This document shows, one piece after another, positions 24,268 to 64,000 of a DNA stretch of 64,000 nucleotides. The notes under the pieces are model-generated. The model saw nothing but the letters and a program-made list of their open reading frames with translations, did not search any database and had not been told where the DNA came from. This stretch comes from Erinaceus europaeus (lineage: Eukaryota > Chordata > Mammalia > Eulipotyphla > Erinaceidae), in assembly GCF_950295315.1 (NCBI RefSeq), contig NC_080181.1:35183375-35247374 (forward strand), given 5' to 3'. Position 1 is the stretch's first letter. Each line of letters begins with the position of its first letter. Position numbers and translations under genes: made by a program.

Positions 24268-24349
24268 GTGCATTGACATTAACTCAGTGGAAAGATACAG
24301 GGACATATACATGTCTGTTATCTATATTACTAAGTCATTTATTGATTGA

Positions 24350-24690
24350 TTGCCTCAAGGTGTTATAGCCACAGCTCAGTGCCTGCGCCACGAATAGCAC
24401 TCCATATGTTCCCCTTCCGCTGCCCTTGTTGCTTGGTCACTGTGGTGGTTATTGTTCTTGTTGTTGTTGTTGAAGTTCCTGACCTTGCATCGGACAGAGA
24501 GAAAAGGAGAGAGGAGGGGAATTACAGAGTGGGGGAGAAAGATAGAGCCCCTAAAGACCTGCTTCACCCGCTGTAAAGCGACTCCCCTGCAGGTGGCTGT
24601 CTGGGGCCCAGAGCCCAGATCCTTCCAACTGTCCCCTCTTTTCTCGAGCGCCACAAGCCCTTAACCCTCTGACATACCGCCAAACATCCC
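24350..24690 (-). mobile_element. SINE-a of unit 1 (one in every unit)
   Basis: A long-form antisense ERI-type SINE: gcctcaaggtgttatagcc, cgccacgaatagcactccat, a gttgttgttgttgaag stretch, cggacagagagaaaaggaga, agacctgcttcacccgctgt, ctgcaggtggctgtctgggg and the head ttaaccctctgacataccgc. It recurs at the same place in all twelve units, so it was in the founder before amplification. Confidence 0.85.
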
Positions 24691-24952
24691 TGGATTTACT
24701 TTTTAAAGCAATATGACCTGCCTTGTTTTGAATCCTCATTATCCTGAGGATCAGTCCTGGAGACAGTGTCATGACAGGACACACGGAGATCTCTGGTATC
24801 AGAGAGCACCTGGAACAGCAGCTGGGACTCTATTGCCAGGGCAGGAGCAACTTCCCATCCACCCTCTATGGAGTCCACCTGCCTGCACTTTGGTCCTTTT
24901 CCCTCCAAAAAGTAGAAGACACTGACAGCAGACAGGTTACCCAGGCAGGGGG

Positions 24953-24993
24953 AAAAAAAATAATAATAAAAAGCCTTTTTTTTTTTTTTTTTT
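24953..24993. repeat. facing A and T tracts (potential hairpin)
   Basis: An A-run with taataa interruptions, aaaaagcc, then an uninterrupted T-run. The arms could pair as a hairpin around AAAAAGCCTTTTT. Tract length differs in nearly every unit, one of the main sources of unit length variation. Confidence 0.75.
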
Positions 24994-25595: not shown

Positions 25596-25623
25596 GGGGA
25601 GCTGGGGGACAGGGGGTAAGGGG
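25596..25623 (+). promoter_or_regulatory. canonical G-quadruplex motif (one in every unit)
   Basis: Four G-runs of 4, 5, 5 and 4 (25,596-25,599; 25,604-25,608; 25,612-25,616; 25,620-25,623) are separated by loops AGCT, ACA and TAA. The same four runs are unchanged in every unit I read (for example 28,932-28,959 and 62,224-62,251). Quadruplex formation is predicted, not shown. Confidence 0.75.
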
Positions 25624-25804
25624 AGAGAGGGTTTGCTTGAGGAGGTGTCTGGACTAGATAGTGGGGGGAGCTGCAGGCATAGAAGGTCCCAGGAATCAGG
25701 GACTGACAGGACAAGATACCTGCACCCACCCACTGGATAGAAGCTGCAGCAGCCAGAACAGCAGCCCTGGCTGGCCTAGGCCAAGGGCCTGAGTGCGTCC
25801 CTCG

Positions 25805-27530: not shown

Positions 27531-27603
27531 GGGACACTTTTTTTTTAGCAATGAAAAGAAATTCTCGTGGCAAGGTGATAAATAAATGAAGAAATAAATA
27601 AAA

Positions 27604-30600
27604 GTGCATTGACATTAACTCAGTGGAAAGACACAGGGACATATACATGTCTGTTATCTATATTACTAAGTCATTTATTGATTGATTGCCTCAAGGTGTT
27701 ATCGCCACAGCTCAGTGCCTGCGCCACGAATAGCACTCCATATGTTCCCCTTCCGCTGCCCTTGTTGCTTGGTCACTGTGGTGGTTATTGTTCTTGTTGT
27801 TGTTGTTGAAGTTCCTGACCTTGCATCGGACAGAGAGAAAAGGAGAGAGGAGGGGAAATACAGAGTGGGGGAGAAAGATAGAGCCCCTAAAGACCTGCTT
27901 CACCCGCTGTAAAGCGACTCCCCTGCAGGTGGCTGTCTGGGGCCCAGAGCCCAGATCCTTCCACCTGTCCCCTCTTTTCTCGAGCGCCACAAGCCCTTAA
28001 CCCTCTGACATACCGCCAAACATCCCTGGATTTACTTTTTAAAGCAATATGACCTGCCTTGTTTTGAATCCTCATTATCCTGAGGATCAGTCCTGGAGAC
28101 AGTGTCATGACAGGACACACGGAGATCTCTGGTATCAGAGAGCACCTGGAACAGCAGCTGGGACTCTATTGCCAGGGCAGGAGCAACTTCCCATCCACCC
28201 TCTATGGAGTCCACCTGCCTGCACTTTGGTCCTTTTCCCTCCAAAAAGTAGAAGACACTGACAGCAGACAGGTTACCCAGGCAGGGGGAAAAAAAATAAT
28301 AATAAAAAGCCTTTTTTTTTTTTTTTTTTTACACCGTACTGAATGACCATCTTCTGGGAAGTACAAGCTTTGAACCTGAAAACTCTGTCTGTCTGTCTGT
28401 CTGTCTCCTAGTCCACAGAAGGAGCCATTAGGCCAGCCAGGTCTCATGCTCAGACTGGGGTGTTTTCGCCAGTCATACGCCTGCACTGCGCACTAGGGAT
28501 TGGGCGGCCTGAGACGCAAATGTTACATTGTAGATGGATTGTTCGCACTTCTTGCTCCCCAGGACATTGGACACTCTCAACTCCCCTACAGCAAGAAAAA
28601 AAAGACTCTTGACAACCTTAGAGCAAACGGAGTGGCGGGGAGGGAGAGTGTTGCATGTGTGGGCTGCTCATGCGCAGGTGTCTGTGGGGGGCCGTGGCAG
28701 AGACTGTAAGGGGGCTAGGGAGCCAATGGAGACTGTTTGAGAGGCAGGCTGCAGGCAGGGGAGCCCCTGAGTGTTTGCAGGGCTGTGTGTGGGTGTGGTG
28801 GCAGGGGGTTAGGGCAGGTCCCCCTGCTGGATGGTGAGATGGTGGCTGGGCTGGCCCAGGACCCCCAGGGCTGAAGGGCAGCAGCAGGGTGGCAGGAAAG
28901 TAGCGCAGGGAGGCACACAGTAGATGTTAGTTGGGGAGCTGGGGGACAGGGGGTAAGGGGAGAGAGGGTTTGCTTGAGGAGGTGTCTGGACTAGATAGTG
29001 GGGGGAGCTGCAGGCATAGAAGGTCCAGGAATCAGGGACTGACAGGACAAGATACCTGCACCCACACACTGGATAGAAGCTGCAGCAGCCAGAACAGCAG
29101 CCCTGGCTGGCCTAGGCCAAGGGCCTGAGTGAGTCCCTCGGAGGATGAGGAAGAGGAGGAGGAGTTGGAGGACGAGGACGAGGAGGAGGAGGAGGAGGAG
29201 GACGAGGAGGACGAGGAGGACGAGGAGGAGGGGAAGGAGGGCAGCTGTCAGTAGGCAATGGGATTAATAGAGACCTCCACTAAGGAGGCATGTGTCCAGG
29301 CAGGCACCCACCAAACCACAGGGGCAGCTCAGGGCACCCAGGGACCTAGTGGGGGTATCTCTGGGGCGGGGACTGTTAGTCAGTCTGCAAGACTGTGTGT
29401 CATTGCACATGGTAGGACAGGTGCCTGGCGGCCCGTGGCCCCCAGCCCTGGGATGGCAGATGCCAGCCCCGTGCCGAGACACACCCCACTCTGCCCATAG
29501 CTCCTTGGCCCATCTCACCTGCAGCTGCGTTGGCCTGGGGCTGTGGCTCTGGTGGCTGGCCACCACCCCTCAGGTCATGTGCAGCGTGGGGGTCATGGCT
29601 GCTGGTCAACTGGATGGGCGTGGTCCCCGTGGCCTAGCAACCACAGGAGCCCTCTGTGATGTCCTAGCCCCCGGCATTCTGTGCTGGCCACACTGGCACT
29701 GGGCAGCCCAACTGCCCTGCCACTAGGTCAGGCAGCAGCGCCCAGATGCCAGGGCCCTGGCACAGAGGGAAGGAAGGATGGGAAGACAGTGCTGACCGAC
29801 GAGGGACCTAAGGGCTGGCAGCCAAGAGAAGAAAGGAGGAGGTGCGCCCGGGATCCAGGGAGCCCAGGCCAGAGCTGCCTGCATGCCTGCCTGCCTCCCT
29901 GGATGTCTGTATGCTGCCTTTGTCCAGGTAGGTTTCTCAGGTCCCCTCCACTCCTGTCCTCTCCTCTCCTCTCCATCCTCTCCCCTCTCCTCTCCTCTCT
30001 GCACCTTGATTCTATCCTCTTGTCTGGCCCCTCTTCCGGGTGCCCTGCTTACGAGCTCCAGCACATGTTCTCCAGTGACAGCTGCTCGCAACCACATCCA
30101 CCCCCTCCCTTCCCCTGAGGTGACCCAGCTCACCCCACCCACACCCACACCTCCCAACACATTCGCTGGTGCAGCCCCTCTGCCCTTTTCAGCCGAACTG
30201 GCCCCTTTGCCACCTACCTGTGCAGCATTGATTGTCTTCATCATTCAAGGAGAGATCTCCTTTTGTACTTAGCTTGGTTGACTGGTGGATGAATGGATGG
30301 ATGGATGGATGGTGGATGGATGGATGGATGGATGGATGGATGAATGGACAGGTCAATGGATTGGTTTTGTAGAGGCAGAGCAACATCTAGGGGTAGTTGA
30401 GACCTCTGGCGTCAGAGCTCTAGTATGCTGTCAAATGTAATACATTAATTCATCAATAACAAAATTGAATAAGTACATAAATAAATAAATCTAAAAACTG
30501 GGTTAAAACATACATGGCGTCTTTGCCTTTCTGCATATGGTATGCTCTGAGGATCTTAACAAGGAAAGCATTGTCCTCAGTAGGCCCTTGAAATAGTGGA

Positions 30601-30930
30601 ATATTTCATTTCCCTTTCTTTTTTTCTTTTTCTTTTTTTACTTTCTATTTTCTTGATTATTTATTGGAAAAAATCGTCAGGAGTTGAGAGGGAAGGGAGG
30701 GGTAGAGATTTTGAGACACAGAGAGACACCTGCAGCACTTGTGCACCACTTGTAAAGATTTCCCCCCGGCAGGTGGGGACCAGGGTCTTGAACCCCGGTT
30801 CTCCTGCACTGTCACATGAGTGCTTAACTGGGTGTGGCACCACCTGGTACCCTTGATGGGACACTTTTTTTTTAGCAATGAAAAGAAATTCTCGTGGCAA
30901 GGTAATAAATAAATGAAGAAATAAATAAAA
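27604..30930 (+). repeat. macrosatellite unit 2 (3327 bp)
   Basis: It carries gttatcgccac instead of gttatagccac in SINE-a, gactgttagtcag, gagacctctggcg, ctagtatgctg and the second GAG/GAC form. All are shared with unit 4, 6660 bases away. Confidence 0.97.
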
Positions 30931-33900
30931 GTGCATTGACATTAACTCAGTGGAAAGACACAGGGACATATACATGTCTGTTATCTATATTACTAAGTCA
31001 TTTATTGATTGATTGCCTCAAGGTGTTATAGCCACAGCTCAGTGCCTGCGCCACGAATAGCACTCCATATGTTCCCCTTCCGCTGCCCTTGTTGCTTGGT
31101 CACTGTGGTGGTTATTGTTCTTGTTGTTGTTGTTGAAGTTCCTGACCTTGCATCGGACAGAGAGAAAAGGAGAGAGGAGGGGAAATACAGAGTGGGGGAG
31201 AAAGATAGAGCCCCTAAAGACCTGCTTCACCCGCTGTAAAGCGACTCCCCTGCAGGTGGCTGTCTGGGGCCCAGAGCCCAGATCCTTCCACCTGTCCCCT
31301 CTTTTCTCGAGCGCCACAAGCCCTTAACCCTCTGACATACCGCCAAACATCCCTGGATTTACTTTTTAAAGCAATATGACCTGCCTTGTTTTGAATCCTC
31401 ATTATCCTGAGGATCAGTCCTGGAGACAGTGTCATGACAGGACACACGGAGATCTCTGGTATCAGAGAGCACCTGGAACAGCAGCTGGGACTCTATTGCC
31501 AGGGCAGGAGCAACTTCCCATCCACCCTCTATGGAGTCCACCTGCCTGCACTTTGGTCCTTTTCCCTCCAAAAAGTAGAAGACACTGACAGCAGACAGGT
31601 TACCCAGGCAGGGGGAAAAAAAAAATAATAAAAAGCCTTTTTTTTTTTTTTTTTTTACACCGTACTGAATGACCATCTTCTGGGAAGTACAAGCTTTGAA
31701 CCTGAAAACTCTGTCTGTCTGTCTGTCTCTCTCCTAGTCCACAGAAGGAGCCATTAGGCCAGCCAGGTCTCATGCTCAGACTGGGGTGTTTTCGCCAGTC
31801 ATACGCCTGCACTGCGCACTAGGGATTGGGCGGCCTGAGACGCAAATGTTACATTGTAGATGGATTGTTCGCACTTCTTGCTCCCCAGGACATTGGACAC
31901 TCTCAACTCCCCTACAGCAAGAAAAAAACGACTCTTGACAACCTTAGAGCAAACGGAGTGGCGGGGAGGGAGAGTGTTGCATGTGTGGGCTGCTCATGCG
32001 CAGGTGTCTGTGGGGGGCCATGGCAGAGACTGTAAGGGGGCTAGGGAGCCAATGGAGACTGTTTGAGAGGCAGGCTGCAGGCAGGGGAGCCCCTGAGTGT
32101 TTGCAGGGCTGTGTGTGGGTGTGGTGGCAGGGGGTTAGGGCAGGTCCCCCTGCTGGATGGTGAGATGGTGGCTGGGCTGGCCCAGGACCCCCAGGGCTGA
32201 AGGGCAGCAGCAGGGTGGCAGGAAAGTAGCGCAGGGAGGCACACAGTAGATGTTAGTTGGGGAGCTGGGGGACAGGGGGTAAGGGGAGAGAGGGTTTGCT
32301 TGAGGAGGTGTCTGGACTAGATAGTGGGGGGAGCTGCAGGCATAGAAGGTCCAGGAATCAGGGACTGACAGGACAAGATACCTGCACCCACACACTGGAT
32401 AGAAGCTGCAGCAGCCAGAACAGCAGCCCTGGCTGGCCTAGGCCAAGGGCCTGAGTGAGTCCCTCGGAGGATGAGGAAGAGGAGGAGGAGTTGTAGGACG
32501 AGGAGGAGGACGAGGACGAGAAGGAGGAGGAGGAGGAGGAGGAGGAGGGAAGGTGGAGGAGGGGAAGGAGGGCAGCTGTCAGTAGGCAATGGGATTAATA
32601 GAGACCTCCACTAAGGAGGCATGTGTCCAGGCAGGCACCCACCAAACCACAGGGGCAGCTCAGGGCACCCAGGGACCTAGTGGGGGTATCTCTGGGGCGG
32701 GGACTGTCAGTCAGTCTGCAAGACTGTGTGTCATTGCACATGGTAGGACAGGTGCCTGGCGGCCCGTGGCCCCCAGCCCTGGGATGGCAGATGCCAGCCC
32801 CGTGCCGAGACACACCCCACTCTGCCCATAGCTCCTTGGCCCATCTCACCTGCAGCTGCGTTGGCCTGGGGCTGTGGCTCTGGTGGCTGGCCACCACCCC
32901 TCAGGTCATGTGCAGCGTGGGGGTCATGGCTGCTGGTCAACTGGATGGGCGTGGTCCCCGTGGCCTAGCAACCACAGGAGCCCTCTGTGATGTCCTAGCC
33001 CCCGGCATTCTGTGCTGGCCACACTGGCACTGGGCAGCCCAACTGCCCTGCCACTAGGTCAGGCAGCAGCGCCCAGATGCCAGGGCCCTGGCACAGAGGG
33101 AAGGAAGGATGGGAAGACAGTGCTGACCGACGAGGGACCTAAGGGCTGGCAGCCAAGAGAAGAAAGGAGGAGGTGCGCCCGGGATCCAGGGAGCCCAGGC
33201 CAGAGCTGCCTGCATGCCTGCATGCCTCCCTGGATGTCTGTATGCTGCCTTTGTCCAGGTAGGTTTCTCAAGTCCCCTCCACTCCTGTCCTCTCCTGTCC
33301 TCTCCTCTCCTCTCCATCCTCTCCCCTCTCCTCTCCTCTCTGCACCTTGATTCTATCCTCTTGTCTGGCCCCTCTTCCGGGTGCCCTGCTTATGAGCTCC
33401 AGCACATGTTCTCCAGTGACAGCTGCTCGCAACCACATCCACCCCCTCCCTTCCCCTGAGGTGACCCAGCTCACCCCACCCACACCCACACCTCCCAACA
33501 CATTCGCTGGTGCAGCCCCTCTGCCCTTTTCAGCTGAACTGGCCCCTTTGCCACCTACCTGTGCAGCATTGATTGTCTTCATCATTCAAGGAGAGATCTC
33601 CTTTTGTACTTAGCTTGGTTGACTGGTGGATGAATGGATGGATGGATGGTGGATGGATGGATGGATGGATGGATGAATGGACAGGTCAATGGATTGGTTT
33701 TGTAGAGGCAGAGCAACATCTAGGGGTAGTTGAGACCGCTGGCGTCAGAGCTCTAGTCTGCTGTCAAATGTAATACATTAATTCATCAATAACAAAATTG
33801 AATAAGTACATAAATAAATAAATCTAAAAACTGGGTTAAAACATACATGGCGTCTTTGCCTTTCTGCATATGGTATGCTCTGAGGATCTTAACAAGGAAA

Positions 33901-34263
33901 GCATTGTCCTCAGTAGGCCCTTGAAATAGTGGAATATTTCATTTCCCTTTCTTTTTTTCTTTTTCTTTTTTTACTTTCTATTTTCTTGATTATTTATTGG
34001 AAAAAATCGTCAGGAGTTGAGAGGGAAGGGAGGGGTAGAGATTTTGAGACACAGAGAGACACCTGCAGCACTTGTGCACCACTTGTAAAGATTTCCCCCC
34101 GGCAGGTGGGGACCAGGGTCTTGAACCCCGGTCCTCCTGCACTGTCACATGAGTGCTTAACTGGGTGTGGCACCACCTGGTACCCTTGATGGGACACTTT
34201 TTTTTTAGCAATGAAAAGAAATTCTCGTGGCAAGGTGATAAATAAATGAAGAAATAAATAAAA
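30931..34263 (+). repeat. macrosatellite unit 3 (3333 bp)
   Basis: Marked by gtctgtctctctcctag, aaaaaacgactc, gggccatggcag, gttgtaggacg, cctgcatgcctgcatgcc, tctcaagtcc, gcttatgagc and cagctgaactgg. All are shared with unit 5. Confidence 0.97.
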
Positions 34264-37200
34264 GTGCATTGACATTAACTCAGTGGAAAGACACAGGGAC
34301 ATATACATGTCTGTTATCTATATTACTAAGTCATTTATTGATTGATTGCCTCAAGGTGTTATCGCCACAGCTCAGTGCCTGCGCCACGAATAGCACTCCA
34401 TATGTTCCCCTTCCGCTGCCCTTGTTGCTTGGTCACTGTGGTGGTTATTGTTCTTGTTGTTGTTGTTGAAGTTCCTGACCTTGCATCGGACAGAGAGAAA
34501 AGGAGAGAGGAGGGGAAATACAGAGTGGGGGAGAAAGATAGAGCCCCTAAAGACCTGCTTCACCCGCTGTAAAGCGACTCCCCTGCAGGTGGCTGTCTGG
34601 GGCCCAGAGCCCAGATCCTTCCACCTGTCCCCTCTTTTCTCGAGCGCCACAAGCCCTTAACCCTCTGACATACCGCCAAACATCCCTGGATTTACTTTTT
34701 AAAGCAATATGACCTGCCTTGTTTTGAATCCTCATTATCCTGAGGATCAGTCCTGGAGACAGTGTCATGACAGGACACACGGAGATCTCTGGTATCAGAG
34801 AGCACCTGGAACAGCAGCTGGGACTCTATTGCCAGGGCAGGAGCAACTTCCCATCCACCCTCTATGGAGTCCACCTGCCTGCACTTTGGTCCTTTTCCCT
34901 CCAAAAAGTAGAAGACACTGACAGCAGACAGGTTACCCAGGCAGGGGGAAAAAAAATAATAATAAAAAGCCTTTTTTTTTTTTTTTTTTTACACCGTACT
35001 GAATGACCATCTTCTGGGAAGTACAAGCTTTGAACCTGAAAACTCTGTCTGTCTGTCTGTCTGTCTCCTAGTCCACAGAAGGAGCCATTAGGCCAGCCAG
35101 GTCTCATGCTCAGACTGGGGTGTTTTCGCCAGTCATACGCCTGCACTGCGCACTAGGGATTGGGCGGCCTGAGACGCAAATGTTACATTGTAGATGGATT
35201 GTTCGCACTTCTTGCTCCCCAGGACATTGGACACTCTCAACTCCCCTACAGCAAGAAAAAAAAGACTCTTGACAACCTTAGAGCAAACGGAGTGGCGGGG
35301 AGGGAGAGTGTTGCATGTGTGGGCTGCTCATGCGCAGGTGTCTGTGGGGGGCCGTGGCAGAGACTGTAAGGGGGCTAGGGAGCCAATGGAGACTGTTTGA
35401 GAGGCAGGCTGCAGGCAGGGGAGCCCCTGAGTGTTTGCAGGGCTGTGTGTGGGTGTGGTGGCAGGGGGTTAGGGCAGGTCCCCCTGCTGGATGGTGAGAT
35501 GGTGGCTGGGCTGGCCCAGGACCCCCAGGGCTGAAGGGCAGCAGCAGGGTGGCAGGAAAGTAGCGCAGGGAGGCACACAGTAGATGTTAGTTGGGGAGCT
35601 GGGGGACAGGGGGTAAGGGGAGAGAGGGTTTGCTTGAGGAGGTGTCTGGACTAGATAGTGGGGGGAGCTGCAGGCATAGAAGGTCCAGGAATCAGGGACT
35701 GACAGGACAAGATACCTGCACCCACACACTGGATAGAAGCTGCAGCAGCCAGAACAGCAGCCCTGGCTGGCCTAGGCCAAGGGCCTGAGTGAGTCCCTCG
35801 GAGGATGAGGAAGAGGAGGAGGAGTTGGAGGACGAGGACGAGGAGGAGGAGGAGGAGGAGGACGAGGAGGACGAGGAGGACGAGGAGGAGGGGAAGGAGG
35901 GCAGCTGTCAGTAGGCAATGGGATTAATAGAGACCTCCACTAAGGAGGCATGTGTCCAGGCAGGCACCCACCAAACCACAGGGGCAGCTCAGGGCACCCA
36001 GGGACCTAGTGGGGGTATCTCTGGGGCGGGGACTGTTAGTCAGTCTGCAAGACTGTGTGTCATTGCACATGGTAGGACAGGTGCCTGGCGGCCCGTGGCC
36101 CCCAGCCCTGGGATGGCAGATGCCAGCCCCGTGCCGAGACACACCCCACTCTGCCCATAGCTCCTTGGCCCATCTCACCTGCAGCTGCGTTGGCCTGGGG
36201 CTGTGGCTCTGGTGGCTGGCCACCACCCCTCAGGTCATGTGCAGCGTGGGGGTCATGGCTGCTGGTCAACTGGATGGGCGTGGTCCCCGTGGCCTAGCAA
36301 CCACAGGAGCCCTCTGTGATGTCCTAGCCCCCGGCATTCTGTGCTGGCCACACTGGCACTGGGCAGCCCAACTGCCCTGCCACTAGGTCAGGCAGCAGCG
36401 CCCAGATGCCAGGGCCCTGGCACAGAGGGAAGGAAGGATGGGAAGACAGTGCTGACCGACGAGGGACCTAAGGGCTGGCAGCCAAGAGAAGAAAGGAGGA
36501 GGTGCGCCCGGGATCCAGGGAGCCCAGGCCAGAGCTGCCTGCATGCCTGCCTGCCTCCCTGGATGTCTGTATGCTGCCTTTGTCCAGGTAGGTTTCTCAG
36601 GTCCCCTCCACTCCTGTCCTCTCCTCTCCTCTCCATCCTCTCCCCTCTCCTCTCCTCTCTGCACCTTGATTCTATCCTCTTGTCTGGCCCCTCTTCCGGG
36701 TGCCCTGCTTACGAGCTCCAGCACATGTTCTCCAGTGACAGCTGCTCGCAACCACATCCACCCCCTCCCTTCCCCTGAGCTGACCCAGCTCACCCCACCC
36801 ACACCCACACCTCCCAACACATTCGCTGGTGCAGCCCCTCTGCCCTTTTCAGCCGAACTGGCCCCTTTGCCACCTACCTGTGCAGCATTGATTGTCTTCA
36901 TCATTCAAGGAGAGATCTCCTTTTGTACTTAGCTTGGTTGACTGGTGGATGAATGGATGGATGGATGGATGGTGGATGGATGGATGGATGGATGGATGGA
37001 TGAATGGACAGGTCAATGGATTGGTTTTGTAGAGGCAGAGCAACATCTAGGGGTAGTTGAGACCTCTGGCGTCAGAGCTCTAGTATGCTGTCAAATGTAA
37101 TACATTAATTCATCAATAACAAAATTGAATAAGTACATAAATAAATAAATCTAAAAACTGGGTTAAAACATACATGGCGTCTTTGCCTTTCTGCATATGG

Positions 37201-37590
37201 TATGCTCTGAGGATCTTAACAAGGAAAGCATTGTCCTCAGTAGGCCCTTGAAATAGTGGAATATTTCATTTCCCTTTCTTTTTTTCTTTTTCTTTTTTTA
37301 CTTTCTATTTTCTTGATTATTTATTGGAAAAAATCGTCAGGAGTTGAGAGGGAAGGGAGGGGTAGAGATTTTGAGACACAGAGAGACACCTGCAGCACTT
37401 GTGCACCACTTGTAAAGATTTCCCCCCGGCAGGTGGGGACCAGGGTCTTGAACCCCGGTTCTCCTGCACTGTCACATGAGTGCTTAACTGGGTGTGGCAC
37501 CACCTGGTACCCTTGATGGGACACTTTTTTTTTAGCAATGAAAAGAAATTCTCGTGGCAAGGTAATAAATAAATGAAGAAATAAATAAAA
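34264..37590 (+). repeat. macrosatellite unit 4 (3327 bp), near copy of unit 2
   Basis: Same length and markers as unit 2. One difference I see is cccctgagctgac (36,778) against cccctgaggtgac in unit 2. Confidence 0.97.
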
Positions 37591-40500
37591 GTGCATTGAC
37601 ATTAACTCAGTGGAAAGACACAGGGACATATACATGTCTGTTATCTATATTACTAAGTCATTTATTGATTGATTGCCTCAAGGTGTTATAGCCACAGCTC
37701 AGTGCCTGCGCCACGAATAGCACTCCATATGTTCCCCTTCCGCTGCCCTTGTTGCTTGGTCACTGTGGTGGTTATTGTTCTTGTTGTTGTTGTTGAAGTT
37801 CCTGACCTTGCATCGGACAGAGAGAAAAGGAGAGAGGAGGGGAAATACAGAGTGGGGGAGAAAGATAGAGCCCCTAAAGACCTGCTTCACCCGCTGTAAA
37901 GCGACTCCCCTGCAGGTGGCTGTCTGGGGCCCAGAGCCCAGATCCTTCCACCTGTCCCCTCTTTTCTCGAGCGCCACAAGCCCTTAACCCTCTGACATAC
38001 CGCCAAACATCCCTGGATTTACTTTTTAAAGCAATATGACCTGCCTTGTTTTGAATCCTCATTATCCTGAGGATCAGTCCTGGAGACAGTGTCATGACAG
38101 GACACACGGAGATCTCTGGTATCAGAGAGCACCTGGAACAGCAGCTGGGACTCTATTGCCAGGGCAGGAGCAACTTCCCATCCACCCTCTATGGAGTCCA
38201 CCTGCCTGCACTTTGGTCCTTTTCCCTCCAAAAAGTAGAAGACACTGACAGCAGACAGGTTACCCAGGCAGGGGGAAAAAAAAAATAATAAAAAGCCTTT
38301 TTTTTTTTTTTTTTTTTACACCGTACTGAATGACCATCTTCTGGGAAGTACAAGCTTTGAACCTGAAAACTCTGTCTGTCTGTCTGTCTCTCTCCTAGTC
38401 CACAGAAGGAGCCATTAGGCCAGCCAGGTCTCATGCTCAGACTGGGGTGTTTTCGCCAGTCATACGCCTGCACTGCGCACTAGGGATTGGGCGGCCTGAG
38501 ACGCAAATGTTACATTGTAGATGGATTGTTCGCACTTCTTGCTCCCCAGGACATTGGACACTCTCAACTCCCCTACAGCAAGAAAAAAACGACTCTTGAC
38601 AACCTTAGAGCAAACGGAGTGGCGGGGAGGGAGAGTGTTGCATGTGTGGGCTGCTCATGCGCAGGTGTCTGTGGGGGGCCATGGCAGAGACTGTAAGGGG
38701 GCTAGGGAGCCAATGGAGACTGTTTGAGAGGCAGGCTGCAGGCAGGGGAGCCCCTGAGTGTTTGCAGGGCTGTGTGTGGGTGTGGTGGCAGGGGGTTAGG
38801 GCAGGTCCCCCTGCTGGATGGTGAGATGGTGGCTGGGCTGGCCCAGGACCCCCAGGGCTGAAGGGCAGCAGCAGGGTGGCAGGAAAGTAGCGCAGGGAGG
38901 CACACAGTAGATGTTAGTTGGGGAGCTGGGGGACAGGGGGTAAGGGGAGAGAGGGTTTGCTTGAGGAGGTGTCTGGACTAGATAGTGGGGGGAGCTGCAG
39001 GCATAGAAGGTCCAGGAATCAGGGACTGACAGGACAAGATACCTGCACCCACACACTGGATAGAAGCTGCAGCAGCCAGAACAGCAGCCCTGGCTGGCCT
39101 AGGCCAAGGGCCTGAGTGAGTCCCTCGGAGGATGAGGAAGAGGAGGAGGAGTTGTAGGACGAGGAGGAGGACGAGGACGAGAAGGAGGAGGAGGAGGAGG
39201 AGGAGGAGGGAAGGTGGAGGAGGGGAAGGAGGGCAGCTGTCAGTAGGCAATGGGATTAATAGAGACCTCCACTAAGGAGGCATGTGTCCAGGCAGGCACC
39301 CACCAAACCACAGGGGCAGCTCAGGGCACCCAGGGACCTAGTGGGGGTATCTCTGGGGCGGGGACTGTCAGTCAGTCTGCAAGACTGTGTGTCATTGCAC
39401 ATGGTAGGACAGGTGCCTGGCGGCCCGTGGCCCCCAGCCCTGGGATGGCAGATGCCAGCCCCGTGCCGAGACACACCCCACTCTGCCCATAGCTCCTTGG
39501 CCCATCTCACCTGCAGCTGCGTTGGCCTGGGGCTGTGGCTCTGGTGGCTGGCCACCACCCCTCAGGTCATGTGCAGCGTGGGGGTCATGGCTGCTGGTCA
39601 ACTGGATGGGCGTGGTCCCCGTGGCCTAGCAACCACAGGAGCCCTCTGTGATGTCCTAGCCCCCGGCATTCTGTGCTGGCCACACTGGCACTGGGCAGCC
39701 CAACTGCCCTGCCACTAGGTCAGGCAGCAGCGCCCAGATGCCAGGGCCCTGGCACAGAGGGAAGGAAGGATGGGAAGACAGTGCTGACCGACGAGGGACC
39801 TAAGGGCTGGCAGCCAAGAGAAGAAAGGAGGAGGTGCGCCCGGGATCCAGGGAGCCCAGGCCAGAGCTGCCTGCATGCCTGCATGCCTCCCTGGATGTCT
39901 GTATGCTGCCTTTGTCCAGGTAGGTTTCTCAAGTCCCCTCCACTCCTGTCCTCTCCTGTCCTCTCCTCTCCTCTCCATCCTCTCCCCTCTCCTCTCCTCT
40001 CTGCACCTTGATTCTATCCTCTTGTCTGGCCCCTCTTCCGGGTGCCCTGCTTATGAGCTCCAGCACATGTTCTCCAGTGACAGCTGCTCGCAACCACATC
40101 CACCCCCTCCCTTCCCCTGAGGTGACCCAGCTCACCCCACCCACACCCACACCTCCCAACACATTCGCTGGTGCAGCCCCTCTGCCCTTTTCAGCTGAAC
40201 TGGCCCCTTTGCCACCTACCTGTGCAGCATTGATTGTCTTCATCATTCAAGGAGAGATCTCCTTTTGTACTTAGCTTGGTTGACTGGTGGATGAATGGAT
40301 GGATGGATGGTGGATGGATGGATGGATGGATGGATGAATGGACAGGTCAATGGATTGGTTTTGTAGAGGCAGAGCAACATCTAGGGGTAGTTGAGACCGC
40401 TGGCGTCAGAGCTCTAGTCTGCTGTCAAATGTAATACATTAATTCATCAATAACAAAATTGAATAAGTACATAAATAAATAAATCTAAAAACTGGGTTAA

Positions 40501-40924
40501 AACATACATGGCGTCTTTGCCTTTCTGCATATGGTATGCTCTGAGGATCTTAACAAGGAAAGCATTGTCCTCAGTAGGCCCTTGAAATAGTGGAATATTT
40601 CATTTCCCTTTCTTTTTTTCTTTTTCTTTTTTTACTTTCTATTTTCTTGATTATTTATTGGAAAAAATCATCAGGAGTTGAGAGGGAAGGGAGGGGTAGA
40701 GATTTTGAGACACAGAGAGACACCTGCAGCACTTGTGCACCACTTGTAAAGATTTCCCCCCGGCAGGTGGGGACCAGGGTCTTGAACCCCGGTTCTCCTG
40801 CACTGTCACATGAGTGCTTAACTGGGTGTGGCACCACCTGGTACCCTTGATGGGACACTTTTTTTTTAGCAATGAAAAGAAATTCTCGTGGCAAGGTAAT
40901 AAATAAATGAAGAAATAAATAAAA
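37591..40924 (+). repeat. macrosatellite unit 5 (3334 bp), near copy of unit 3
   Basis: Carries all unit 3 markers with one extra T in the T-run. Its last part departs from unit 3: aaatcatcagg, ccggttctcc and aaggtaataa, placing the end of the duplicated block between about 40,434 and 40,670. Confidence 0.97.
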
Positions 40925-47200: not shown

Positions 47201-47575
47201 TGAGGATCTTAACAAGGAAAGCATTGTCCTCAGTAGGCCCTTGAAATAGTGGAATATTTCATTTCCCTTTCTTTTTCTTTTTTTACTTTCTATTTTCTTG
47301 ATTATTTATTGGAAAAAATCGTCAGGAGTTGAGAGGGAAGGGAGGGGTAGAGATTTTGAGACACAGAGAGACACCTGCAGCACTTGTGCACCACTTGTAA
47401 AGATTTCCCCCCGGCAGGTGGGGACCAGGGTCTTGAACCCCGGTCCTCCTGCACTGTCACATGAGTGCTTAACTGGGTGTGGCACCACCTGGTACCCTTG
47501 ATGGGACACTTTTTTTTTAGCAATGAAAAGAAATTCTCGTGGCAAGGTAATAAATAAATGAAGAAATAAATAAAA
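44254..47575 (+). repeat. macrosatellite unit 7 (3322 bp)
   Basis: Shares tctacattac, gggcgtatctc, the nine-base deletion and the short T tract with unit 8; both are exactly 3322 bases. Confidence 0.97.
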
Positions 47576-50500
47576 GTGCATTGACATTAACTCAGTGGAA
47601 AGACACAGGGACATATACATGTCTGTTATCTACATTACTAAGTCATTTATTGATTGATTGCCTCAAGGTGTTATAGCCACAGCTCAGTGCCTGCGCCACG
47701 AATAGCACTCCATATGTTCCCCTTCCGCTGCCCTTGTTGCTTGGTCACTGTGGTGGTTATTGTTCTTGTTGTTGTTGTTGAAGTTCCTGACCTTGCATCG
47801 GACAGAGAGAAAAGGAGAGAGGAGGGGAAATACAGAGTGGGGGAGAAAGATAGAGCCCCTAAAGACCTGCTTCACCCGCTGTAAAGCGACTCCCCTGCAG
47901 GTGGCTGTCTGGGGCCCAGAGCCCAGATCCTTCCACCTGTCCCCTCTTTTCTCGAGCGCCACAAGCCCTTAACCCTCTGACATACCGCCAAACATCCCTG
48001 GATTTACTTTTTAAAGCAATATGACCTGCCTTGTTTTGAATCCTCATTATCCTGAGGATCAGTCCTGGAGACAGTGTCATGACAGGACACACGGAGATCT
48101 CTGGTATCAGAGAGCACCTGGAACAGCAGCTGGGACTCTATTGCCAGGGCAGGAGCAACTTCCCATCCACCCTCTATGGAGTCCACCTGCCTGCACTTTG
48201 GTCCTTTTCCCTCCAAAAAGTAGAAGACACTGACAGCAGACAGGTTACCCAGGCAGGGGGAAAAAAAAATAATAAAAAGCCTTTTTTTTTTTTTTTTTAC
48301 ACCGTACTGAATGACCATCTTCTGGGAAGTACAAGCTTTGAACCTGAAAACTCTGTCTGTCTGTCTGTCTCCTAGTCCACAGAAGGAGCCATTAGGCCAG
48401 CCAGGTCTCATGCTCAGACTGGGGTGTTTTCGCCAGTCATACGCCTGCACTGCGCACTAGGGATTGGGCGGCCTGAGACGCAAATGTTACATTGTAGATG
48501 GATTGTTCGCACTTCTTGCTCCCCAGGACATTGGACACTCTCAACTCCCCTACAGCAAGAAAAAAAAGACTCTTGACAACCTTAGAGCAAACGGAGTGGC
48601 GGGGAGGGAGAGTGTTGCATGTGTGGGCTGCTCATGCGCAGGTGTCTGTGGGGGGCCGTGGCAGAGACTGTAAGGGGGCTAGGGAGCCAATGGAGACTGT
48701 TTGAGAGGCAGGCTGCAGGCAGGGGAGCCCCTGAGTGTTTGCAGGGCTGTGTGTGGGTGTGGTGGCAGGGGGTTAGGGCAGGTCCCCCTGCTGGATGGTG
48801 AGATGGTGGCTGGGCTGGCCCAGGACCCCCAGGGCTGAAGGGCAGCAGCAGGGTGGCAGGAAAGTAGCGCAGGGAGGCACACAGTAGATGTTAGTTGGGG
48901 AGCTGGGGGACAGGGGGTAAGGGGAGAGAGGGTTTGCTTGAGGAGGTGTCTGGACTAGATAGTGGGGGGAGCTGCAGGCATAGAAGGTCCAGGAATCAGG
49001 GACTGACAGGACAAGATACCTGCACCCACACACTGGATAGAAGCTGCAGCAGCCAGAACAGCAGCCCTGGCTGGCCTAGGCCAAGGGCCTGAGTGAGTCC
49101 CTCGGAGGATGAGGAAGAGGAGGAGGAGTTGGAGGACGAGGAGGAGGACGAGGACGAGGAGGAGGAGGAGGAGGAGGAGGAGGAGGAGGAGGAGGGAAGG
49201 TGGAGGAGGGGAAGGAGGGCAGCTGTCAGTAGGCAATGGGATTAATAGAGACCTCCACTAAGGAGGCATGTGTCCAGGCAGGCACCCACCAAACCACAGG
49301 GGCAGCTCAGGGCACCCAGGGACCTAGTGGGCGTATCTCTGGGGCGGGGACTGTCAGTCAGTCTGCAAGACTGTGTGTCATTGCACATGGTAGGACAGGT
49401 GCCTGGCGGCCCGTGGCCCCCAGCCCTGGGATGGCAGATGCCAGCCCCGTGCCGAGACACACCCCACTCTGCCCATAGCTCCTTGGCCCATCTCACCTGC
49501 AGCTGCGTTGGCCTGGGGCTGTGGCTCTGGTGGCTGGCCACCACCCCTCAGGTCATGTGCAGCGTGGGGGTCATGGCTGCTGGTCAACTGGATGGGCGTG
49601 GTCCCCGTGGCCTAGCAACCACAGGAGCCCTCTGTGATGTCCTAGCCCCCGGCATTCTGTGCTGGCCACACTGGCACTGGGCAGCCCAACTGCCCTGCCA
49701 CTAGGTCAGGCAGCAGCGCCCAGATGCCAGGGCCCTGGCACAGAGGGAAGGAAGGATGGGAAGACAGTGCTGACCGACGAGGGACCTAAGGGCTGGCAGC
49801 CAAGAGAAGAAAGGAGGAGGTGCGCCCGGGATCCAGGGAGCCCAGGCCAGAGCTGCCTGCATGCCTGCCTGCCTCCCTGGATGTCTGTATGCTGCCTTTG
49901 TCCAGGTAGGTTTCTCAGGTCCCCTCCACTCCTGTCCTCTCCTGTCCTCTCCTCTCCTCTCCATCCTCTCCCCTCTCCTCTCCTCTCTGCACCTTGATTC
50001 TATCCTCTTGTCTGGCCCCTCTTCCGGGTGCCCTGCTTACGAGCTCCAGCACATGTTCTCCAGTGACAGCTGCTCGCAACCACATCCACCCCCTCCCTTC
50101 CCCTGAGGTGACCCAGCTCACCCCACCCACACCCACACCTCCCAACACATTCGCTGGTGCAGCCCCTCTGCCCTTTTCAGCCGAACTGGCCCCTTTGCCA
50201 CCTACCTGTGCAGCCTTCATCATTCAAGGAGAGATCTCCTTTTGTACTTAGCTTGGTTGACTGGTGGATGAATGGATGGATGGATGGTGGATGGATGGAT
50301 GGATGGATGGATGGATGAATGGACAGGTCAATGGATTGTTTTTGTAGAGGCAGAGCAACATCTAGGGGTAGTTGAGACCGCTGGCGTCAGAGCTCTAGTC
50401 TGCTGTCAAATGTAATACATTAATTCATCAATAACAAAATTGAATAAGTACATAAATAAATAAATCTAAAAACTGGGTTAAAACATACATGGCGTCTTTG

Positions 50501-50897
50501 TCTTTCTGCATATGGTATGCTCTGAGGATCTTAACAAGGAAAGCATTGTCCTCAGTAGGCCCTTGAAATAGTGGAATATTTCATTTCCCTTTCTTTTTCT
50601 TTTTTTACTTTCTATTTTCTTGATTATTTATTGGAAAAAATCGTCAGGAGTTGAGAGGGAAGGGAGGGGTAGAGATTTTGAGACACAGAGAGACACCTGC
50701 AGCACTTGTGCACCACTTGTAAAGATTTCCCCCCGGCAGGTGGGGACCAGGGTCTTGAACCCCGGTCCTCCTGCACTGTCACATGAGTGCTTAACTGGGT
50801 GTGGCACCACCTGGTACCCTTGATGGGACACTTTTTTTTTAGCAATGAAAAGAAATTCTCGTGGCAAGGTAATAAATAAATGAAGAAATAAATAAAA
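47576..50897 (+). repeat. macrosatellite unit 8 (3322 bp)
   Basis: I found no difference from unit 7 at any marker I compared. Probably the most recent duplication in the array. Confidence 0.97.
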
Positions 50898-53800
50898 GTG
50901 CATTGACATTAACTCAGTGGAAAGACACAGGGACATATACATGTCTGTTATCTACATTACTAAGTCATTTATTGATTGATTGCCTCAAGGTGTTATAGCC
51001 ACAGCTCAGTGCCTGCGCCACGAATAGCACTCCATATGTTCCCCTTCCGCTGCCCTTGTTGCTTGGTCACTGTGGTGGTTATTGTTCTTGTTGTTGTTGT
51101 TGAAGTTCCTGACCTTGCATCGGACAGAGAGAAAAGGAGAGAGGAGGGGAAATACAGAGTGGGGGAGAAAGATAGAGCCCCTAAAGACCTGCTTCACCCG
51201 CTGTAAAGCGACTCCCCTGCAGGTGGCTGTCTGGGGCCCAGAGCCCAGATCCTTCCACCTGTCCCCTCTTTTCTCGAGCGCCACAAGCCCTTAACCCTCT
51301 GACATACCGCCAAACATCCCTGGATTTACTTTTTAAAGCAATATGACCTGCCTTGTTTTGAATCCTCATTATCCTGAGGATCAGTCCTGGAGACAGTGTC
51401 ATGACAGGACACACGGAGATCTCTGGTATCAGAGAGCACCTGGAACAGCAGCTGGGACTCTATTGCCAGGGCAGGAGCAACTTCCCATCCACCCTCTATG
51501 GAGTCCACCTGCCTGCACTTTGGTCCTTTTCCCTCCAAAAAGTAGAAGACACTGACAGCAGACAGGTTACCCAGGCAGGGGGAAAAAAAAATAATAAAAA
51601 GCCTTTTTTTTTTTTTTTTTACACCGTACTGAATGACCATCTTCTGGGAAGTACAAGCTTTGAACCTGAAAACTCTGTCTGTCTGTCTGTCTCCTAGTCC
51701 ACAGAAGGAGCCATTAGGCCAGCCAGGTCTCATGCTCAGACTGGGGTGTTTTCGCCAGTCATACGCCTGCACTGCGCACTAGGGATTGGGCGGCCTGAGA
51801 CGCAAATGTTACATTGTAGATGGATTGTTCGCACTTCTTGCTCCCCAGGACATTGGACACTCTCAACTCCCCTACAGCAAGAAAAAAAAGACTCTTGACA
51901 ACCTTAGAGCAAACGGAGTGGCGGGGAGGGAGAGTGTTGCATGTGTGGGCTGCTCATGCGCAGGTGTCTGTGGGGGGCCGTGGCAGAGACTGTAAGGGGG
52001 CTAGGGAGCCAATGGAGACTGTTTGAGAGGCAGGCTGCAGGCAGGGGAGCCCCTGAGTGTTTGCAGGGCTGTGTGTGGGTGTGGTGGCAGGGGGTTAGGG
52101 CAGGTCCCCCTGCTGGATGGTGAGATGGTGGCTGGGCTGGCCCAGGACCCCCAGGGCTGAAGGGCAGCAGCAGGGTGGCAGGAAAGTAGCGCAGGGAGGC
52201 ACACAGTAGATGTTAGTTGGGGAGCTGGGGGACAGGGGGTAAGGGGAGAGAGGGTTTGCTTGAGGAGGTGTCTGGACTAGATAGTGGGGGGAGCTGCAGG
52301 CATAGAAGGTCCAGGAATCAGGGACTGACAGGACAAGATACCTGCACCCACACACTGGATAGAAGCTGCAGCAGCCAGAACAGCAGCCCTGGCTGGCCTA
52401 GGCCAAGGGCCTGAGTGAGTCCCTCGGAGGATGAGGAAGAGGAGGAGGAGTTGGAGGACGAGGAGGAGGACGAGGACGAGGAGGAGGAGGAGGAGGAGGA
52501 GGAGGAGGAGGAGGAGGGAAGGTGGAGGAGGGGAAGGAGGGCAGCTGTCAGTAGGCAATGGGATTAATAGAGACCTCCACTAAGGAGGCATGTGTCCAGG
52601 CAGGCACCCACCAAACCACAGGGGCAGCTCAGGGCACCCAGGGACCTAGTGGGCGTATCTCTGGGGCGGGGACTGTCAGTCAGTCTGCAAGACTGTGTGT
52701 CATTGCACATGGTAGGACAGGTGCCTGGCGGCCCGTGGCCCCCAGCCCTGGGATGGCAGATGCCAGCCCCGTGCCGAGACACACCCCACTCTGCCCATAG
52801 CTCCTTGGCCCATCTCACCTGCAGCTGCGTTGGCCTGGGGCTGTGGCTCTGGTGGCTGGCCACCACCCCTCAGGTCATGTGCAGCGTGGGGGTCATGGCT
52901 GCTGGTCAACTGGATGGGCGTGGTCCCCGTGGCCTAGCAACCACAGGAGCCCTCTGTGATGTCCTAGCCCCCGGCATTCTGTGCTGGCCACACTGGCACT
53001 GGGCAGCCCAACTGCCCTGCCACTAGGTCAGGCAGCAGCGCCCAGATGCCAGGGCCCTGGCACAGAGGGAAGGAAGGATGGGAAGACAGTGCTGACCGAC
53101 GAGGGACCTAAGGGCTGGCAGCCAAGAGAAGAAAGGAGGAGGTGCGCCCGGGATCCAGGGAGCCCAGGCCAGAGCTGCCTGCATGCCTGCCTGCCTCCCT
53201 GGATGTCTGTATGCTGCCTTTGTCCAGGTAGGTTTCTCAGGTCCCCTCCACTCCTGTCCTCTCCTGTCCTCTCCTCTCCTCTCCATCCTCTCCCCTCTCC
53301 TCTCCTCTCTGCACCTTGATTCTATCCTCTTGTCTGGCCCCTCTTCCGGGTGCCCTGCTTACGAGCTCCAGCACATGTTCTCCAGTGACAGCTGCTCGCA
53401 ACCACATCCACCCCCTCCCTTCCCCTGAGGTGACCCAGCTCACCCCACCCACACCCACACCTCCCAACACATTCGCTGGTGCAGCCCCTCTGCCCTTTTC
53501 AGCCGAACTGGCCCCTTTGCCACCTACCTGTGCAGCATTGATTGTCTTCATCATTCAAGGAGAGATCTCCTTTTGTACTTAGCTTGGTTGACTGGTGGAT
53601 GAATGGATGGATGGATGGTGGATGGATGGATGGATGGATGGATGGATGAATGAATGGACAGGTCAATGGATTGGTTTTGTAGAGGCAGAGCAACATCTAG
53701 GGGTAGTTGAGACCGCTGGCGTCAGAGCTCTAGTCTGCTGTCAAATGTAATACATTAATTCATCAATAACAAAATTGAATAAGTACATAAATAAATAAAT

Positions 53801-54240
53801 CTAAAAACTGGGTTAAAACATACATGGCGTCTTTGTCTTTCTGCATATGGTATGCTCTGAGGATCTTAACAAGGAAAGCATTGTCCTCAGTAGGCCCTTG
53901 AAATAGTGGAATATTTCATTTCCCTTTCTTTTTTTCTTTTTCTTTTTTTACTTTCTATTTTCTTGATTATTTATTGGAAAAAATCGTCAGGAGTTGAGAG
54001 GGAAGGGAGGGGTAGAGATTTTGAGACACAGAGAGACACCTGCAGCACTTGTGCACCACTTGTAAAGATTTCCCCCCGGCAGGTGGGGACCAGGGTCTTG
54101 AACCCCGGTCCTCCTGCACTGTCACATGAGTGCTTAACTGGGTGTGGCACCACCTGGTACCCTTGATGGGACACTTTTTTTTTAGCAATGAAAAGAAATT
54201 CTCGTGGCAAGGTAATAAATAAATGAAGAAATAAATAAAA
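50898..54240 (+). repeat. macrosatellite unit 9 (3343 bp), hybrid
   Basis: The left two thirds match units 7-8 (tctacattac, gggcgtatctc). After about 53,536 it reverts to the undeleted attgattgt form, the long T-rich tail and gattggttttgtag, with a private gatgaatgaatgg. This marks a recombination boundary. Confidence 0.97.
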
Positions 54241-60500: not shown

Positions 60501-60902
60501 TCTGCATATGGTATGCTCTGAGGATCTTAACAAGGAAAGCATTGTCCTCAGTAGGCCCTTGAAATAGTGGAATATTTCATTTCCCTTTCTTTTTTTCTTT
60601 TTCTTTTTTTACTTTCTATTTTCTTGATTATTTATTGGAAAAAATCGTCAGGAGTTGAGAGGGAAGGGAGGGGTAGAGATTTTGAGACACAGAGAGACAC
60701 CTGCAGCACTTGTGCACCACTTGAAAAGATTTCCCCCCGGCAGGTGGGGACCAGGGTCTTGAACCCCGGTCCTCCTGCACTGTCACATGAGTGCTTAACT
60801 GGGTGTGGCACCACCTGGTACCCTTGATGGGACACTTTTTTTTTTAGCAATGAAAAGAAATTCTCGTGGCAAGGTAATAAATAAATGAAGAAATATATAA
60901 AA
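57569..60902 (+). repeat. macrosatellite unit 11 (3334 bp)
   Basis: Private tcctagagacag, gtcccttggagg, tgtctaggcagg, ggtagctgag and cttgaaaagat. Second GAG/GAC form. Confidence 0.97.
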
Positions 60903-63900
60903 GTGCATTGACATTAACTCAGTGGAAAGACACAGGGACATATACATGTCTGTTATCTATATTACTAAGTCATTTATTGATTGATTGCCTCAAGGTGTTA
61001 TAGCCACAGCTCAGTGCCTGCGCCACGAATAGCACTCCATATGTTCCCCTTCCGCTGCCCTTGTTGCTTGGTCACTGTGGTGGTTATTGTTCTTGTTGTT
61101 GTTGTTGAAGTTCCTGACCTTGCATCGGACAGAGAGAAAAGGAGAGAGGAGGGGAAATACAGAGTGGGGGAGAAAGATAGAGCCCCTAAAGACCTGCTTC
61201 ACCTGCTGTAAAGCGACTCCCCTGCAGGTGGCTGTCTGGGGCCCAGAGCCCAGATCCTTCCACCTGTCCCCTCTTTTCTCGAGCGCCACAAGCCCTTAAC
61301 CCTCTGACATACCGCCAAACATGCCTGGATTTACTTTTTAAAGCAATATGACCTGCCTTGTTTTGAATCCTCATTATCCTGAGGAACAGTCCTGGAGACA
61401 ATGTCATGACAGGACACACGGAGATCTCTGGTATCAGAGAGCACCTGGAACAGCAGCTGGGACTCTATTGCCAGGGCAGGAGCAACTTCCCATCCACCCT
61501 CTATGGAGTCCACCTGCCTGCACTTTGGTCCTTTTCCCTCCAAAAAGTAGAAGACACTGACAGCAGACAGGTTACCCAGGCAGGGGGAAAAAAAAAATAA
61601 TAAAAAGCCTTTTTTTTTTTTTCTTTACACCGTACTGAATGACCATCTTCTGGGAAGTACAAGCTTTGAACCTGAAAACTCTGTCTGTCTGTCTGTCTCC
61701 TAGTCCACAGAAGGAGCCATTAGGCCAGCCAGGTCTCATGCTCAGACTGGGGTGTTTTCGCCAGTCATACGCCTGCACTGCGCACTAGGGATTGGGCGGC
61801 CTGAGACGCAAATGTTACATTGTAGATGGATTGTTTGCACTTCTTGCTCCCCAGGACATTGGACACTCTCAACTCCCCTACAGCAAGAAAAAAAAGACTC
61901 TTGACAACCTTAGAGCAAACGGAGTGGCGGGGAGGGAGAGTGTTGCATGTGTGGGCTGCTCATGCGCAGGTGTCTGTGGGGGGCCGTGGCAGAGACTGTA
62001 AGGGGGCTAGGGAGCCAATGGAGACTGTTTGAGAGGCAGGCTGCAGGCAGGGGAGCCCCTGAGTGTTTGCAGGGCTGTGTGTGGGTGTGGTGGCAGGGGG
62101 TTAGGGCAGGTCCCCCTGCTGGATGGTGAGATGGTGGCTGGGCTGGCCCAGGACCCCCAGGGCTGAAGGGCAGCAGCAGGGTGGCAGGAAAGTAGCGCAG
62201 GGAGGCACACAGTAGATGTTAGTTGGGGAGCTGGGGGACAGGGGGTAAGGGGAGAGAGGGTTTGCTTGAGGAGGTGTCTGGACTAGATAGTGGGGGGAGC
62301 TGCAGGCATAGAAGGTCCAGGAATCAGGGACTGACAGGACAAGATACCTGCACCCACACACTGGATAGAAGCTGCAGCAGCCAGAACAGCAGCCCTGGCT
62401 AGCCTAGGCCAAGGGCCTGAGTGAGTCCCTCGGAGGATGAGGAAGAGGAGGAGGAGTTGGAGGACGAGGAGGAGGATGAGGACGAGGAGGAGGAGGAGGA
62501 GGAGGAGGAGGAGGAGGAGGAGGAGGAGGGAAGGTGGAGGAGGGGAAGGAGGGCAGCTGTCAGTAGGCAATGGGATTAATAGAGACCTCCACTAAGGAGG
62601 CATGTGTCCAGGCAGGCACCCACCAAACCACAGGGGCAGCTCAGGGCACCCAGGGACCTAGTGGGGGTATCTCTGGGGCGGGGACTGTCAGTCAGTCTGC
62701 AAGACTGTGTGTCATTGCACATGGTAGGACAGGTGCCTGGCGGCCCGTGGCCCCCAGCCCTGGGATGGCAGATGCCAGCCCCGTGCCCAGACACACCCCA
62801 CTCTGCCCATAGCTCCTTGGCCCATCTCACCTGCACCTGCGTTGGCCTGGGGCTGTGGCTCTGGTGGCTGGCCACCACCCCTCAGGTCATGTGCAGCGTG
62901 GGGGTCATGGCTGCTGGTCAACTGGATGGGCGTGGTCCCCATGGCCTAGCAACCACAGGAGCCCTCTGTGATGTCCTAGCCCCCGGCATTCTGTGCTGGC
63001 CACACTGGCACTGGGCAGCCCAACTGCCCTGCCACTAGGTCAGGCAGCAGCGCCCAGATGCCAGGGCCCTGGCACAGAGGGAAGGAAGGATGGGAAGACA
63101 GTGCTGACCGACGAGGGACCTAAGGGCTGGCAGCCAAGAGAAGAAAGGAGGAGGTGCGCCCGGGATCCAGGGAGCCCAGGCCAGAGCTGCCTGCATGCCT
63201 GCCTGCCTCCCTGGATGTCTGTATGCTGCCTTTGTCCAGGTAGGTTTCTCAGGTCCCCTCCACTCCTGTCCTCTCCTGTCCTCTCCTCTCCTCTCCATCC
63301 TCTCCCCTCTCCTCTCCTCTCTGCACCTTGATTCTATCCTCTTGTCTGGCCCCTCTTCCGGGTGCCCTGCTTAGGAGCTCCAGCACATGTTCTCCAGTGA
63401 CAGCTGCTCGCAACCACATCCACCCCCTCCCTTCCCCTGAGGTGACCCAGCTCACCCCACCCACACCCACACCTCCCAACACATTCGCTGGTGCAGCCCC
63501 TCTGCCCTTTTCAGCCGAACTGGCCCCTTTGCCACCTACCTGTGCAGCATTGATTGTCTTCATCATTCAAGGAGAGATCTCCTTTTGTACTTAGCTTGGT
63601 TGACTGGTGGATGAATGGATGGATGGATGGTGGATGGATGGATGGATGGATGGATGGATGGATGGATGGATGAATGGACAGGTCAATGGATTGGTTTTGT
63701 AGAGGCAGAGCAACATCTAGGGGTAGTTGAGACCGCTGGCGTCAGAGCTCTAGTCTGCTGTCAAATGTAATACATTAATTCATCAATAACAAAATTGAAT
63801 AAGTACATAAATAAATCTAAAAACTGGGTTAAAACATACATGGCGTCTTTGCCTTTCTGCATATGGTATGCTCTGAGGATCTTAACAAGGAAAGCATTGT

Positions 63901-64000
63901 CCTCAGTAGGCCCTTGAAATAGTGGAATATTTCATTTCCCTTTCTTTTTTTCTTTTTCTTTTTTTACTTTCTATTTTCTTGATTATTTATTGGAAAAAAT
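60903..64000 (+). repeat. macrosatellite unit 12, cut by window end
   Basis: 3098 bases, ending inside SINE-b. Private aaatatataaaag, cacctgctgta, catgcctgg, gaggaacagtc, a T-run broken by C (ttctttacacc), gattgtttgc, ggctagcc and gaggatgagg. It shares gcttaggagc with unit 10. The array continues beyond the window. Confidence 0.95.

Follow-up and report, generated by a model that had tools for sequence, protein, structure and literature searches.

The DNA stretch analyzed here comprises 64,000 nucleotides of the hedgehog Erinaceus europaeus (assembly GCF_950295315.1, contig NC_080181.1, positions 35,183,375 to 35,247,374 of the forward strand) and is referred to in its full length as the window. 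It contains a long array of tandemly repeated 3.33-kb units, which extends to the right end of the window, and in the 24-kb flank to the left of this array three predicted exons of a gene resembling ARHGAP20. Positions are those of the window unless they are named as unit positions. The array is described by its unit starts, unit lengths and pairwise identities:

24,268-64,000, plus strand: array of 11 full units and the partial unit 12

The full units, 3,322-3,343 bp in length, and unit 12 are arranged head-to-tail without a break. Unit 12 reaches the end of the window after 3,098 bp, and the array consists of at least twelve units. The initial annotation had proposed a tandem array of this unit size and minimum number, and all twelve unit starts that it gave turned out to be exact, since the same 28 opening bases were found at each of them with eleven spacings of 3,322-3,343 bp. 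Pairwise identities calculated for the 66 pairs of units from the ungapped columns of a multiple alignment amounted to 99.15-100%, length differences being additional to these values. Repeated 24-mers within the window showed spacings of mostly ~3.32-3.34 kb, and one 26-base pattern of the unit core was recovered exactly in nine of the twelve units, compared to an expectation of 0.00 determined by 100 shuffles. The array is far beyond chance. Differences in unit length mostly reside in simple repeats, namely runs of GGA, TGGA, A and T, and few were detected outside of them, e.g., a 9-bp gap in units 6 to 8. The full units have a GC content of 53.5-54.0% and contain 50-55 CpG each, while no XbaI site was seen in the array; the left flank has one at 23,355. 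By its layout of multi-kb tandem units with the same orientation, the array is a macrosatellite as defined in the excerpted text of PMC3018141. Literature searches did not turn up an earlier description of it, which is a weak test of novelty. As expected for mammalian DNA, the unit was without a match among plasmids, and one 26-base pattern had no exact match in contigs of IMG/VR.

Unit composition and coding content were studied in unit 5, one of the twelve units. Three stretches stand out within it:

37,772-37,994, minus strand: stretch resembling a short interspersed element (SINE), unit positions 182-404, with five matches in the flank (67-83%)
40,636-40,865, minus strand: second SINE-like stretch, unit positions ~3046-3275, with four matches in the flank (68-77%)
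38,600-40,200, no strand assigned: GC-rich core with GGA and TCCTC runs, 56-68% GC in 200-bp steps, CpG-poor and without a Pfam domain

Both SINE-like stretches presumably are tRNA-type hedgehog SINEs in minus orientation. The earlier view that the unit is built around hedgehog-type SINEs is right as far as the existence of these stretches is concerned, but they account for ~0.22 and 0.23 kb of the 3.33 kb. The observed-to-expected ratio of CpG (CpG o/e) was 0.21 in unit 5 and 0.17 in the flank. Unit 5 was compared with Pfam in all six frames, both alone and together with its junction; no family was disclosed at E-values up to 0.1, and no homeobox was found in the six separate frames or across the junction. 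The longest ATG frame of this unit encodes 105 amino acids (aa), compared to a mean of 127 in sequences generated by a first-order Markov chain, 151 out of 200 of which reached 105. The longest frame listed for the unit (144 aa, GTG start) had no protein relative at E-values up to 0.01. A protein-coding unit was rejected on the grounds that unit 5 revealed no Pfam domain, that its ATG frame was not beyond chance and that the 144-aa frame had no relative. An array of RNA genes was rejected as well, as neither a tRNA nor an Rfam family at gathering score was found in the window; the matches to MIR815 (E 0.16) and MIR1507 (E 0.26) were far below the gathering score and taken as chance. There is no recognized coding content in unit 5.

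Substitutions were compared using only columns which were free of gaps across all 12 units, whereby the missing end of unit 12 and most simple-repeat columns dropped out. Two groups of closely related units emerged from this alignment:

27,604-40,924, plus strand: duplicated two-unit block, units 2-3 (27,604-34,263) and units 4-5 (34,264-40,924), recognized by shared rarer bases
44,254-54,240, plus strand: units 7, 8 and 9, near one sequence, the most recent copies seen

Units 2 and 4 alone share the rarer base at 12 columns and units 3 and 5 alone at eight, the identities being 99.97% and 99.91%, respectively. Because the rarer bases are shared pairwise, the block of units 2 and 3 was copied as units 4 and 5, or the reverse. 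Units 7 and 8 are identical over 3,322 bp, while unit 9 shows 99.97% identity by substitutions and is 21 bp longer through insertions and deletions. Altogether, eight unit types can be distinguished: unit 1; units 2/4; units 3/5; unit 6; units 7-9; unit 10; unit 11; and unit 12. Since units 2 and 3 recur as units 4 and 5, and since units 7 to 9 are near identical, the copies have been propagated one or two complete units at a time. These blocks of one and two units in a fixed register are probably the trace of unequal exchange between misaligned copies, and the duplication of a two-unit block is compatible with the copy number variation between individuals that characterizes macrosatellites. 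A gradient in which the edge units are the most diverged ones was rejected, as no clean trend towards the edge appeared (11 private substitutions in unit 1 compared to the 12 and eight shared by units 2/4 and units 3/5, respectively). The same data bear on the question of whether one or a few units were wrongly repeated during assembly. The identity of units 7 and 8 over their whole length could be explained in this way, but eight unit types in an ordered block pattern are not expected from the mistaken copying of one unit, and we regard an artefact of this kind as most improbable.

At its left end the array is preceded by a remnant of a further unit, which adjoins an older repeat:

24,186-24,267, plus strand: truncated unit 0, composed of 45 bp of unit positions 233-277 and 37 bp of A-rich, unit-end-like DNA (45/45 match in 11 of 12 units)
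24,063-24,185, no strand assigned: old dispersed repeat interrupted by the array, recognized by its copies in the flank

The 45-bp piece (24,186-24,230) is identical at all 45 positions to 11 of the twelve units and at 44 positions to unit 1. Within positions 1-24,180 the best rival ungapped match reached 34/45. The 37 bp of A-rich DNA connect this piece to unit position 1, so that the array starts 82 bp left of unit 1. The A-rich DNA resembles the end of a unit, which would fit an internal deletion in unit 0. Two further copies of the old repeat in the flank (from 2358 and, on the other strand, from 6168) extend beyond the break point with a different sequence. Because both copies continue past this point, the array cuts the older repeat at ~24,185/24,186 and opens with a deleted unit.

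Six-frame Pfam scans of the left flank yielded one family above the curated cut-off, RHG20_PH (PF22286). It was detected in an unjoined frame at 22,691-22,843 (E 5.2e-8, 33.4 bits), and the start of the profile matched in a different frame at 20,718-20,819 (E 0.015). From these matches and the splice borders three exons were predicted:

20,660-20,815, plus strand: predicted exon A, PH profile positions 1-34, AG/GT borders, open frame
22,693-22,842, plus strand: predicted exon B, PH profile positions 33-83, E 5.2e-8, AG/GT borders
23,821-23,862, plus strand: predicted exon C, end of the PH domain, donor GT at 23,863, AG/GT borders, matching phase

The phases of the three exons agree, each of them is preceded by AG and followed by GT, and none contains a stop codon. 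The joined peptide of 115 residues covers positions 1-92 of the 93 positions of PF22286 (E 8.2e-24, 84.1 bits, cut-off 27.7), an E-value that is flattered by the fact that the exons were joined with the profile in view; the value obtained for exon B in its own frame is free of this problem. Exon C is separated by 323 bp from the truncated unit and by 405 bp from unit 1, and its donor site points into the array. To a stretch of human ARHGAP20, the joined peptide is identical at 34 of 96 positions (35%, ungapped). We judge the gene to be a probable paralogue of divergent, ARHGAP20-like type, as it appears too different for an orthologue. No solved structure matched the joined peptide at E-values up to 1, and in literature searches on ARHGAP20 copies ARHGAP20 was absent from the matches listed. 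Both the ARHGAP20-like exons beside the array and the partial unit at its edge are new relative to the initial annotation.

Taking these data together, we think it fairly probable that the array is a local, non-coding macrosatellite, which has grown by unequal exchange and which most likely lies inside an intron of the divergent ARHGAP20-like gene. Several observations weigh against this explanation. The gene is possibly a pseudogene, though it is still open over 115 codons. In ARHGAP20 the PH domain is followed by RA and RhoGAP domains, neither of which was found by the Pfam scans of the left flank and unit 5, and in the whole window the human ARHGAP20 stretch matched only the PH exons (best other match E 0.16); the sequence encoding these two domains would be situated beyond 64,000. 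Moreover, an assembly error may be involved or further arrays may exist elsewhere.

As the continuation of the gene beyond the array is not seen, the gene copy may be truncated. The array would then mark the end of this copy: a duplicated 5′ part of the gene would have broken at this site, being separated from unrelated sequence by the array or by a more extensive satellite block. Such a history, which differs from the intronic explanation only in the placement within an intron and otherwise overlaps with it, would account for the later exons missing from the flank and from unit 5 and from the window-wide comparison with the human stretch. It would also agree with the divergence of the gene and with an array edge that consists of a break inside an old repeat together with a deleted unit. 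On the other hand, frame, phases and splice borders have been retained in all three exons, features that a dead copy loses over time. We therefore treat the truncated copy as a tentative possibility. The probabilities expressed here for the various explanations overlap and do not sum to one.

The array might also be the border of a much larger satellite, e.g., a centromeric or heterochromatic one. It runs past the end of the window, and a survey of tandem repeats, as far as its excerpted text goes, reported a low abundance in Erinaceus europaeus and suggested that the units are perhaps too long for Sanger reads (PMC4053949). A 3.3-kb unit would fit this suggestion, and the array would be an instance of the hedgehog tandem repeats that were missed owing to their long units. 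Nevertheless, the border of the array is sharp and lies 0.3 kb from an open exon, and no CENP-B box was found in unit 5. Altogether, a border of this type is unlikely, although the one locus seen provides a weak test of it.

According to the intronic explanation, a single 3.3-kb stretch harboring old SINE-like elements and simple repeats would have been duplicated head-to-tail, and the array would then have expanded and been homogenized via unequal exchange between misaligned units. Most likely it resides in the intron following exon C, and would accordingly be transcribed as part of the pre-mRNA and removed by splicing. The array would be passive, transcribed at most as an intron, and probably confined to one place; macrosatellites tend to occupy one or two chromosomal sites. 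A sequence-specific function is not to be expected; any effect would most likely be exerted via the length of the array or via CpG-poor silent chromatin.

Attempts were also made to identify regulatory signals. Two words were located by word search in each unit:

25,162 and 25,332, with counterparts in each of the remaining 11 units: ATTGGGCGG and CATGCGCA, respectively

The word ATTGGGCGG and, ~170 bp on, CATGCGCA occur in all twelve units and on neither strand of the flank. We take them to be promoter-like words, NF-Y/GC-box-like and NRF1-like, respectively. Together with the size and homogeneity of the array, which are similar to those of DXZ4 and D4Z4, they could indicate a regulatory macrosatellite working like these two by an internal promoter or a CTCF boundary. 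In addition, a GC content of 0.5 and a CpG o/e of 0.6 were reached by 36 windows of 200 bp within unit 5, the best CpG o/e being 0.68 at unit position 858. Several results weigh against such a role. The clustering of CpG is at chance level, as it was equaled by 452 of 1000 null placements at 200 bp and by 802 of 1000 at 300 bp; a CpG-island promoter, for which the loose criterion was reached, was rejected because the clustering is not above null placement. The best CTCF-like score in unit 5, obtained with an approximate motif, was matched by 51 of 100 shuffles in which two-base blocks were moved. Allowing up to three mismatches, the 23-base core of the DXZ4-type CTCF motif, taken from the excerpted text of PMC8662614, did not occur in the window. 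The presence of promoter-like words in all units says little because the units are 99% identical, and a YY1-like word was found in only two of the twelve. A regulatory macrosatellite of this kind is thus very unlikely.

Some further matches were obtained in the left flank. An open frame of 240 codons (16,657-17,379, plus strand) contains an internal duplication, the two copies of which (17,047-17,121 and 17,170-17,244) are 79% alike. It had no protein relative at E-values up to 0.01 and gave a Shugoshin_N match only below the cut-off. On the strand opposite to this frame, a doubtful gag p24-like match (16,858-17,001, minus strand, E 0.007) was under the cut-off and is probably due to chance. 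An L1 fragment resides at 6715-6879 on the minus strand (Tnp_22_dsRBD, E 3e-4, 21.2 bits, cut-off 22.2).

An array next to, and probably inside, a hedgehog gene would be an independent case of macrosatellite origin and would provide a natural system for asking whether a host gene is influenced by the length of such an array. A more far-reaching scenario would be a polymorphic array of at least 40 kb in an intron of a rapidly evolving ARHGAP20-like gene. The length of this array would determine the efficiency with which transcription and splicing proceed from the PH exons to those of the RA and RhoGAP domains, thereby tuning the dose of the full-length protein. We put this forward as speculation with a slim chance of being correct.

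Among the matches listed in our searches, the macrosatellite literature deals mostly with primates, plus mouse and cat. The initial annotation had likened the array to D4Z4 and DXZ4, a comparison that holds for size and head-to-tail order and, judged by coding content, CpG and CTCF-like sites, no further. Human D4Z4 (4q35, 3.3 kb) encodes the double homeobox gene DUX4, according to the excerpted texts of PMC4965136 and PMC3334996; the hedgehog array shares its unit size and order, whereas no homeobox was found in unit 5. DXZ4 (primate X, 3 kb) is similar in unit size, internal simple repeats and tandem order. In seven primates its units have 61-65% GC and 154-192 CpG; DXZ4 has a CTCF site and lies beside PLS3, as given in the excerpt of PMC3218863, and feline DXZ4 is likewise enriched for CpG islands in that of PMC8662614. 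In contrast, the full hedgehog units exhibit the lower GC and CpG values reported above, there is neither a CTCF motif above chance in unit 5 nor the DXZ4 motif core in the window, and the neighbor seen in the 24 kb of left flank is the set of ARHGAP20-like exons. By its content the array matches neither D4Z4 nor DXZ4.

The excerpted text of PMC3018141 describes two further macrosatellites. SST1 on human 4q28.3 and 19q13.12 is composed of tandem 2.4-2.5 kb units, which on chromosome 4 are 97-100% identical; they have 64% GC and a CpG island and, apart from a few simple repeats, are free of dispersed elements. It resembles the hedgehog array in its tandem kb-scale units and differs from it in that the hedgehog unit contains SINEs and is CpG-poor. 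TAF11-Like on human 5p15.1 possesses an open reading frame that is conserved among primates and comprises 198 aa in great apes, while unit 5 revealed neither an ATG frame beyond chance nor a Pfam domain. Its 3.4-kb head-to-tail units show 99.3-99.7% identity and 49.6% GC, unit fragments lie some kb from the edges of the array, and complete units are without an XbaI site (PMC3018141). The hedgehog array is thus like TAF11-Like, as portrayed in this excerpt, in unit size, order, identity, moderate GC content, edge fragments and the absence of XbaI sites from its interior, and it appears to be a large repeat of an ordinary type whose location is unusual.

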